Positions 19,551-21,867 of a DNA stretch of 40,562 nucleotides are shown in pieces (the stretch's first letter is position 1; each line of letters begins with the position of its first letter). Under the pieces are notes generated by a model. It had not been told where the DNA came from. It saw only the letters and a list, made by a program, of their open reading frames with translations, and did no database searches. The stretch is from Bdellovibrionales bacterium (GTDB lineage: Bacteria; Bdellovibrionota; Bdellovibrionia; Bdellovibrionales; UBA1609). The position numbers and the translations under genes were made by a program. The stretch is from NCBI GenBank assembly GCA_020850475.1, contig JADZEO010000013.1, forward strand, positions 1 to 40,562. The letters run 5' to 3'.

Positions 19551-20426
19551 ATGGATCCGAAACGACGAATTACCCTAGAAAAGCTCTCCCTGGATCTGGA
19601 GTTCTTGGCGGTTGAAGACCCCGGTTCTCTGGCTCCGGTCCTTATTGGGGTGAACACTCTTTTAGATAACTTGGAATCGGGCGAGTCCATTCAGCGCGTC
19701 CTCAACTTCATGACCTATGAACTGTCGGCACTGTCGGCGGACCTCAACGAGTTGGACCGCTTTTTGTTGCTCAACGATTACTTTTTTAATCGTAAGGGCT
19801 TTCAGAGCCGTCCCCCAGCAGGGGCCAACGTGCGGGACGATTTGTTAATCCAATCGGTGCTCGCCAATAAGATGGGCCATCCGCTGATTTTGGCTTTGAT
19901 CTACAGTCATTTGGCCACGCAAATCGATATCCCGGCATTTTTAATCAACTTGCCCTCGCACGCCCTCCTGAAATGGGTGCGCGGCGGCCACTCGAGTTAC
20001 GTCGACCTGACTGAAAATGGCAAGTTACTCGAGGAAGAACAGTTGGTCGCGCTGGTCAATCGGGCGTTTAACGGCGAAGACGACGGCAAGTCAGAGTCGC
20101 TGGATATTTTACCGAGTCGCCAGGTGATTGCCCGTTATCTCCATTTGCTGCTCGAGCAAGAGGAGACTCTGGGCAATAAGAAGCAGACGCTTTTGCTCTA
20201 CAACTTGCTGCTCAAACTGGAACCGTCAAACCTTAAGGTGTTGGCGCGACGTTCACTTCTCCTTCGCGAGATGGGTTTGGCCAAAGAGGCGATTGCGGAT
20301 CTTAAGCGCTACTTCTCGTTTGTGGACCGCAGCCAGGTTTCGCCCGAATTGCAGATGGCCTTTCTCGAGCTTCAGCAACTCACCGAGCCTCAGCACCCGA
20401 CGCCGTCGAGCGAGTATCTCCACTAG
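19551..20426 (+). CDS. SirB1-like/TPR protein
   Basis: A 291-residue cytoplasmic protein. Residues 1-165 resemble the SirB1 N-terminal (transglutaminase-like) domain, with its hallmark helix LLIQSVLANKMGHPLILALIYSHLA written here in two parts, LLIQSVLANKMGHP and LILALIYSHLA. Residues 195-270 form tetratricopeptide-type helical repeats. There is no Cys in the expected catalytic position, as in other SirB1 proteins, so it is a scaffold and not an enzyme. There is no ribosome-binding site; a TATTCT at 19534-19539 would place the transcript start within about five bases of the ATG, so a leaderless mRNA is possible. The molecular role of this family is not established. Confidence 0.75.
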   Translation: MDPKRRITLEKLSLDLEFLAVEDPGSLAPVLIGVNTLLDNLESGESIQRVLNFMTYELSALSADLNELDRFLLLNDYFFNRKGFQSRPPAGANVRDDLLIQSVLANKMGHPLILALIYSHLATQIDIPAFLINLPSHALLKWVRGGHSSYVDLTENGKLLEEEQLVALVNRAFNGEDDGKSESLDILPSRQVIARYLHLLLEQEETLGNKKQTLLLYNLLLKLEPSNLKVLARRSLLLREMGLAKEAIADLKRYFSFVDRSQVSPELQMAFLELQQLTEPQHPTPSSEYLH

Positions 20427-20439
20427 CACCCGCGCAGCC

Positions 20440-20636
20440 TTCAGGATTTTGTTCTCTTTCTTCCGAAAGACTTTGTCTCCGTCGATCCGAAGTTCACGTG
20501 CGCGCGGGGCGTATCCGGGTTGCGTTGGCCCCCTGGAGGGCTAACGCAATCCGAAGACGAGCCCGCGGCCGTCGAGTGCTACGAGGACCGACGGAGACAA
20601 AGTCTTTCGGAAGAAGGAGTAACTCAAAGTCTTGAA
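20440..20636. repeat. Structured inverted-repeat element, copy 1
   Basis: A perfect 27-bp inverted repeat (20458-20484 with 20589-20615), weakly extended outward to 20440 and 20636, encloses a 104-nt core. The core has a conserved 5' block at 20484-20503, a conserved GGGGCGTATCCGG at 20506-20518, a hairpin with stem GGGTTGCG/CGCAATCC (20517-20524/20545-20552), and a conserved 34-nt 3' block at 20554-20587. That block can fold as GACG-A-GCC-CGC-GGC-CGTC. Copy 2 lies about 1.06 kb away in the same orientation. This copy fills the space between two convergent genes, where it could also end transcription. Strand of activity unknown. Confidence 0.85.
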
Positions 20637-20650
20637 TGGTTCTGGTGAGT

Positions 20651-21304
20651 TTAGCGAGAGCCCGTCACTGGCGCAGCCGTGCCAGGTGCTACGGTGTCGG
20701 ATGCGGAGGTTGGACTAGGCAATTTGGCTGGTCCCGGTCCAATTACAACGGCCGCCGAGGGGCTGGGGCAATCACTTTGATCAACTCGAGGCCCTGACCA
20801 AGTTTGCCAGCGACGCCGAGTATCTTTAACCAACTTAGGGAGCTCACCCCTAAAGACAAAACCTTCGGACCAAAGTTCACTAATCGAATCACCTCGCGGA
20901 ACCTGCCGGTCTTGCCCATGGCTTATCACCGTGTAAGTCGTATTCGGCTCCTCTTGCAGCCTCGGCTGAAAGTAGTGTCGGTTTTGAGGAGTATTCACGG
21001 CATATTGACTGATGCGGTTAACATCCAACCCTTGACTGTTCTGGACCTCGCGATGTTCAAATTGGACGCCGGTGTTACTAATAATGCGCGTGACGATCTG
21101 ATCGGGAGTGGCACCTCCATCGATGAAACCTTCGACGGTTTGACCCAAGTGACTCGTACAAACTACTTCGGTTCGGTACTGACAACGAGCATTGAGCAGG
21201 AAGTTTTTATTTTCGCAACGCCACTCAGCTCTTGCTGCTGGAGTCAGCAAAATTCCTACAGCAGCCATCAATAACCAAATTTTACTAAACGTGGTAGTTT
21301 TCAT
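20651..21304 (-). CDS. Secreted Cys-containing protein of unknown function
   Basis: A 217-residue exported protein. The signal peptide (KIWLLMAAVGILLTPAARA) is cleaved near residue 26. The mature chain has four Cys (30, 41, 49, 179) that could form disulfides, and the last 37 residues are a Pro/Ala/Ser/Thr-rich tail. No family recognised. The start at 21304 follows an excellent GAGGAGAG site; the open frame continues to 21382 without support. The gene is flanked on both sides by the two structured repeat copies, one 15 bases beyond its stop and the other about 200 bases upstream of its start. Confidence 0.72.
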   Translation of the reverse strand: MKTTTFSKIWLLMAAVGILLTPAARAEWRCENKNFLLNARCQYRTEVVCTSHLGQTVEGFIDGGATPDQIVTRIISNTGVQFEHREVQNSQGLDVNRISQYAVNTPQNRHYFQPRLQEEPNTTYTVISHGQDRQVPRGDSISELWSEGFVFRGELPKLVKDTRRRWQTWSGPRVDQSDCPSPSAAVVIGPGPAKLPSPTSASDTVAPGTAAPVTGSR

Positions 21305-21867
21305 AACTCTCCTCACATTAAAAATAAATTTCTCCGTGCCGTACTCTCTAAAATTGCAACTCCGGGGCCAGTGCAAGTTCACAAGATGTGGAACTCACCT
21401 TCCTCTTCGACGGCCAGATCGCTCAACCGACTCGCTTCACATCCTGTGAAAAGTGAATTGTTAGACAGTTGGTAAGAGTGTCGCCATTTCCCGCCGACTC
21501 CCTTCAAGAGTTTGACTTCTTCTTTCCAAGACTTCCTTTCGATCCGAAGTTCACGTGCGCTTTGGGGCGTATCCGGCGTGCGGTGGCTCGAAGAGGTAAC
21601 GCACGCCAAAGACGAGCCCGCGGCCGTCGAGTGCTACGAGGATCGAAAGGAAGTCTTGGAAAGAAGAAGTCAAAGCTTGAATTAGGGTCGGAGGCGCAAA
21701 AAGGGGCGATCGGCCTGTCTATCGCTCGAGGGAGGATTCGGTTGCAAAGCTGAGGACTTAGACTTTGCCCACCAAAGGTGTCAAAACTCTCGACACTCGT
21801 GGGGCCTGAAAACCAGGGTGGCACGCTTGCACCTCTATGGGTAAGGCACAAATCGAGGAGAGGAAAA
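21305..21867. other. 563-base divergent intergenic region
   Basis: No convincing gene lies here. It holds the start region of the minus-strand secreted protein (ribosome-binding site just past 21304), structured element copy 2 at 21503-21681, and the leader of the plus-strand Lcl_C-like gene, including a small inverted repeat GTGTC/GACAC near 21778-21796. I could not find a near-consensus promoter for either gene. Open frames crossing it are by-products of the inverted repeats. Confidence 0.6.
21503..21681. repeat. Structured inverted-repeat element, copy 2
   Basis: A perfect 35-bp inverted repeat (21511-21545 with 21640-21674), extended by TTCAAG/CTTGAA at 21503-21508 and 21676-21681, encloses a 94-nt core. 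The conserved blocks of copy 1 recur unchanged at 21541-21560, 21564-21576 and 21609-21642. The internal hairpin stem is GGCGTGCG/CGCACGCC (21575-21582/21600-21607): two pairs differ from copy 1, and both changes keep pairing. A symmetric internal loop with TGG opposite TAA is kept in both copies. The basal arms differ in sequence from copy 1 yet pair perfectly. It lies between divergent genes, so it is not simply a 3'-end terminator. Confidence 0.85.

Follow-up and report, generated by a model that had tools for sequence, protein, structure and literature searches.

E1, a structured element of Bdellovibrionales whose copies lie between host DNA and an inverted copy of it

The DNA analysed here, termed the window (40,562 nt from a Bdellovibrionales bacterium), contains two copies of a structured element, which we named E1. 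Insertions of this element have the footprint N-core-reverse complement(N), where N consists of 31-112 nt of host DNA from one side of the site. E1 is probably a small, non-autonomous, mobile structured element, which is inserted together with an inverted copy of its target flank by a snap-back or a hairpin-opening process.

The window elements and the E1 family

The two elements occupy positions 20440-20636 and 21503-21681 of the same strand, exactly where an earlier note, made from the sequence alone, had placed them. Its claim of shared core blocks was borne out by three common repeat blocks with lengths of 55 nt (89% identical), 24 nt (88%), and 22 nt (100%). All parts of both elements are given for the plus strand. 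The core of copy 1 (20482..20592), which comprises repeat blocks and a covariance-model match at 20493-20575 (84.8 bits, E 2e-19), is closed by a left inverted arm (20454..20488) and a right arm mirroring it (20585..20619). As the note had described, these arms contain a perfect run of 27 bp (20458-20484 and 20589-20615); in total, 33 of 35 positions (94%) are paired. Further outside, two imperfect arms follow: TTCAGGATTTTG (20440..20451), located 13 nt past the TAG of the left gene, and CAAAGTCTTGAA (20625..20636), located 14 nt from the stop of the right gene. Thus, copy 1 fills a gap between convergent genes, whose stop codons are both 13-14 nt beyond the arms: a 291 aa ORF on the plus strand (19551..20426), which ends just beyond the arm, and a 243 aa ORF on the minus strand (20651..21382), which lies between copies 1 and 2. 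In copy 2, the core (21546..21639; covariance-model match 21550-21630, 69.9 bits, E 2e-15) is enclosed by arms of 35 bp (21511..21545 and 21640..21674), all 35 pairs of which are perfect; an outer arm TTCAAG (21503..21508) pairs with CTTGAA at 21676-21681. The paired changes reported for the inner hairpin were found as well: columns 29/91 change from GU to CG and columns 30/90 from UA to GC. The similarity between the arms of copies 1 and 2 is borderline (z 3.8), and these two copies may have a common arm ancestor, unlike most other copies in their genome. As their arms are possibly related, the window pair alone is no proof of the footprint; the proof comes from the whole family.

An alignment of 22 E1 cores, whose size is about 75-145 nt, gave a rod with conserved internal loops. 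Its outermost helix of 2-3 bp alternates between UCG:CGA, CG:CG, and AUG:CAU and is followed by a 1x3 loop; further inward are GCGGG:CCYGC, a G/AG loop, CGU:ACG, a 3x3 loop (AUC/AAG), and the inner hairpin. The covariation check suggested in the earlier note had a positive outcome: seven pairs show two-sided changes versus 3.8 in shuffled alignments, the score is 0.254 versus 0.112, and none of 500 shuffles reached either the covariation score or the percentage of paired positions of the core. Judged by this covariation and by its G:U-tolerant helices, the core presumably behaves as a folded single strand, either RNA or ssDNA. In carrier G014, the apical stems show paired insertions and deletions on both strands as well as double changes. 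The copies L056-L062 of G037 have an extended apical loop with a CCAATTGCTTTCGG-type sequence, which is complementary to a downstream GGCCGAAAGCAATTGG and covaries with it among copies; a pseudoknot or an alternative fold is possible.

The covariance-model search of relatives, likewise proposed in the note, detected E1 in 12 of the 144 genomes of the class and nowhere else among 369 genomes of the phylum. From the 12 carriers, 86 copies were extracted. All carriers belong to the order Bdellovibrionales, a name which was taken from one matching record; the carrier G006 is, according to a contig match, the Bdellovibrionales MAG ALOHA_A2.5_10. The genome of the window has nine copies, G014 has the most, and BLASTN found more copies on other contigs of the window's genome and in other genera. 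The spread is patchy: core matches are absent from the congeners G018, G031, G022, and G033. Rfam 15 contained no match to the window elements, at gathering threshold or at E<=5, and the viral contigs, phages, and plasmids searched gave no match to E1. An exact-pattern scan of 84,980 species identified, outside of the G006 MAG, only coding-like sequences without complementary arms. In G025, E1 is apparently nested within the apical hairpin of another E1 (L139/L140 and L142/L144), and contig breaks occur there. Head-to-head pairs with a distance of about 180-380 nt are found in G006 (L102, L103, L105) and in G037 (L060:6303-6764), which suggests that insertion is preferred near existing copies.

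Properties and host origin of the arms

Inverted arms were observed in 79 of the approximately 80 E1 copies with enough flanking sequence; they span 31-112 nt and contain perfect runs of up to 99 bp. Exceptions are one half copy and copy L130 of G014, which has no matching arms. The two flanks of the latter (L130:2542-2686) are unpaired and the left one is like that of L120; L130 may be a recombinant between E1 copies. Within some genomes, arm lengths are narrowly distributed (62-66 nt in G025, mostly 40-44 nt in G006, 37-50 nt in G055), which suggests a length ruler.

The arms of closely related copies are, with one exception, not related to each other. For 13 pairs of cores from G000 that are at least 90% identical, the arm identity is 0.59, compared to 0.57 for shuffled arms; in G025, G006, and G055, the arms of such cores are likewise at about the shuffled level. 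The exception is G037 with an arm identity of 0.79, where the inner arms are partly homologous among copies, so some of this arm sequence is inherited. The most instructive case is G025: Cores are identical or nearly identical out to the closing AGG/CCT, and completely different arms of 62-66 nt begin directly beyond. It is not possible for 60 flanking pairs all to be exchanged in step around a core that remains unchanged; consequently, compensated drift fails to explain the arms.

The origin of the arms can be read from the neighbouring genes, which were called mechanically. In 20 copies, the stop codon of one neighbour lies inside exactly one arm, usually with a coding tail of up to 38 nt, and the mirror copy of this sequence is found across the core. 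Examples are the tails ...KDALKNL* of the left gene at L060:3764-3873, ...RGTIFF* of the right gene at L058, and ...QLKEKT* of the right gene at L062. Native sides were assigned on the basis of gene tails and terminators; according to the true gene tail, the native side is the left one in 11 copies and the right one in nine. Four of the seven G055 copies (L053, L108, L110, L111) follow an intrinsic terminator; in each of them, the T-run marks the precise start of the mirror copy, which ends at the stem. A T-run boundary of the same appearance exists in L114 (G133) and L100 (G004), which brings the number to about six copies. In five copies of G037 (L058, L059, L060:3764-3873, L061, L062), the stop codon of the neighbour is exactly 14 nt from the TGTTGA at the outer end of the element; in the left arm of L062, this conserved sequence reads TGCTGA.

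Direct repeats of at least 4 nt, which would signal a direct target duplication, occur in none of 79 copies (0.38 expected by permutation). As the arms are unrelated, contain coding tails and T-runs, and are not accompanied by a direct duplication, each insertion has to be described as N-core-reverse complement(N). Insertions are mostly found between genes or just downstream of them, and convergent gene pairs host 30 of 72 copies, whereas they make up 17-19% of background gaps of at least 30 nt (P ~2e-4 to 4e-4). There is no universal boundary motif: about five copies of G006 have GGGTT(A/C) just beyond their right arm, and the boundaries in G055 are mostly terminators. In congeners, the core is missing from syntenic loci with matching flanks, where the intergenic DNA is too diverged for reading the pre-insertion sequence base by base. 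Based on the dispersed copies and the empty syntenic sites, we strongly infer that E1 is mobile; of the two options offered in the earlier note, the hairpin-based non-autonomous mobile element is the one favoured by these data.

The other option was a structured non-coding RNA family, i.e. a gene family whose stems were shaped by selected compensatory changes. For the core, this option has merit, as the core covaries, tolerates G:U, and keeps its AUC/AAG internal loops. The arms do not comply. In 79 copies, arm positions comprise 4215 Watson-Crick pairs, 78 G:U, 52 A:C, 129 other mismatches, and 95 gaps; thus, the number of G:U pairs is close to that of A:C, and their share is 1.8% versus about 9.5% in the core helices (P 8e-48). 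This is how arms copied at the DNA level and decaying by mutation would look, next to a core selected as a folded strand. The note had argued that arms which differ between copies and stay complementary indicate a selected structure. With unrelated arms on cores that are at least 90% identical, with arms that include the coding ends of neighbouring genes and the T-runs of their terminators, and with few G:U pairs, this conclusion is not supported: For the arms, which are inverted copies of host flanks, the RNA option is already refuted; it holds for the core only, and as an account of the element as a whole it is improbable.

Arms of this length and perfection are not part of the genomic background, since seven of the eight perfect inverted repeats of at least 18 bp in 397 kb of the window's genome, from which all statistics for this genome were drawn, enclose an E1 core. 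The same holds for G014: in a 400-kb stretch taken without selection, all six such repeats enclose a conserved core (one E1 and five of a second family, F3, see below). Among the loci read, the only long coreless palindrome is the one at L110:3589-3687 (G055), with 48 perfect base pairs and a loop of 3 nt. These numbers bear on the idea that E1 inserts into the loops of pre-existing palindromes. Both the nested cores of G025, with one E1 in the apex of another, and the insertions beside terminators in G055 are compatible with it. However, hardly any long perfect palindrome without a core occurs in the DNA scanned, and the arms contain the coding tail of one gene plus its mirror copy; we therefore regard such a target choice as very unlikely. 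A technical origin, i.e. fold-back chimeras of amplification or assembly, could be suspected for those copies that coincide with contig breaks. Such an artefact is practically negligible as an explanation, given that one and the same core is found in 12 independent genomes, that the arms have accumulated mismatches, and that F3 is present in G042, a complete genome consisting of one contig.

The alternative deserving most attention is a two-step process: a conventional insertion of E1, followed by replication template switching at the hairpin (quasipalindrome correction), by which the arms would be extended into either flank and made perfect. It would be in agreement with the use of either side as template, with the paired indels and double changes in the apical stems of G014, with old copies that are perfect inward and degenerate outward, and with the homologous inner arms of G037, which are kept perfect. 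On the other hand, long arms are found in almost every E1 copy, their length is near constant in several genomes, and the other long perfect hairpins in the scanned stretches almost always enclose a conserved core; this speaks for a process linked to the cores. For these reasons, we consider later growth of the arms unlikely and prefer that the inverted copy arises with the insertion of E1.

Further core families and candidate enzymes

The inverted-copy footprint is also shown by at least one more core family. This family, F3, has an unrelated core of 79 nt (GCTCAGACA...hairpin...GAACTCGC), and the 400 kb of G014 contain five copies with copy-specific perfect arms, which are mutually unrelated (L213:35-223, L211:4516-4685, L211:3693-3855, L210:2741-2871, and L214:18311-18439). 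A search with an F3 model detected this family in 40 of 144 genomes, among them the complete genome G042; its arms reach 90 bp (L256). F3 is present in nine of the 12 E1 carriers versus 31 of the 132 other genomes (P 5e-4). A possible third core family, F2, is represented by candidates from four genomes, which align poorly: hairpins with a CCUCC-like loop and a three-way junction, enclosed by perfect arms of 34-83 bp (L123:1340-1567, L120:3604-3776, L056:10394-10559, L053:3690-3842, and L054:5737-5872). The arm of the L123 candidate contains the coding tail ...FDPKMKK*. The F2 and F3 loci gave no match to Rfam.

The search for a mobilising enzyme of E1 identified no candidate. A reverse transcriptase (RVT_1) is encoded in five of the 12 carriers and never adjoins a copy. 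Y1 transposases occur in nine of 12 carriers, compared to 99 of 144 genomes overall; at E<=1e-5 they are absent from G002, G014, and G017, and none is near a copy among the matches listed. At the sensitivity used, neither enzyme class tracks or flanks E1, and both were rejected as common partners. A class-wide search for the palindrome nuclease subunit SbcD (TIGR00619) showed that it is absent from all E1 carriers and present only in 11 genomes of family f10; these are without the element (P 0.034, a value confounded by phylogeny). The absence of SbcD may allow the palindromes to persist in the carriers.

Proposed mechanism and comparison with known systems

In the proposed mechanism, the mirror copy of N would be newly made by the insertion itself. 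One end of the E1 core would be connected to the end of a strand of N; as its own ends pair, the core would fold back, and its 3' end would prime synthesis along N. In an equivalent route, a DNA end capped by the core as a hairpin would be opened off-centre. After N has been copied, the product would be joined to the far side. A folded terminator stem on the template could halt copying, thus creating the T-run boundaries, and at least F3 would use the same process as E1. The simplest form of this scheme is at odds with the native sides, which are found both on the left and on the right: A route of single polarity is insufficient, and we assume that either strand of E1 can be used. In a broader sense, it is quite conceivable that several unrelated cores (E1, F3, and perhaps F2) share one machinery, which produces an inverted rather than a direct target duplication via a hairpin-capped or self-primed end in hosts without SbcCD; this would be a new mode of DNA mobility.

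Several known systems resemble E1 in part. Bacterial MITEs such as Correia/NEMIS, ERIC, RUP, RPE, and YPAL possess short terminal repeats, 4-24 bp according to the table of a review (PMC2229807). Like these, E1 is short (class of about 100-200 bp), non-coding, multicopy, dispersed, and intergenic and forms long stem-loops. The terminal repeats of MITEs, however, belong to the element, whereas the arms of E1 vary from site to site and mirror host DNA; neither terminal repeats common to the copies, given an arm identity at shuffled level, nor a direct target duplication was found. With REP/REPIN-RAYT systems, E1 shares short hairpins between genes, which at times form inverted pairs. In contrast to them, E1 is not associated with or adjacent to Y1 transposases, and its richest carrier, G014, has no Y1 match; to our knowledge, REPs do not have copy-specific arms. 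Quasipalindrome template-switch mutagenesis, in which one arm serves as the template for the other, likewise yields perfect inverted repeats, but it is a mutation process acting on existing hairpins, and E1 is dispersed and has a conserved core. Retron msr-msd and integron attC sites are folded units with copy-variable, complementary closing arms; E1 lacks the associated reverse transcriptase of retrons, and its arms derive from the host flank, the comparison with attC being one of the arms alone. The P nucleotides of V(D)J recombination are inverted copies of a DNA end, generated after the off-centre opening of a hairpin-capped end. They comprise a few nucleotides, are eukaryotic, and do not contain an inserted core; the analogy to the off-centre route is one of mechanism only. 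In the open-licence literature, we found no description of such elements and could not match the insertion footprint to any known mobile element; E1 thus appears as an undescribed family.

The well-characterised transposons we know of generate a direct duplication of their target or do not alter it. If our interpretation is true, the extended inverted copy of host DNA that remains at the insertion site implies an integration chemistry so far undescribed. Insertions of the E1 type would then be one origin of the long palindromes in bacterial genomes; they would also rewrite the terminators and 3' ends of genes. The presence of F3 in a complete genome makes this process testable in a cultured predatory bacterium.
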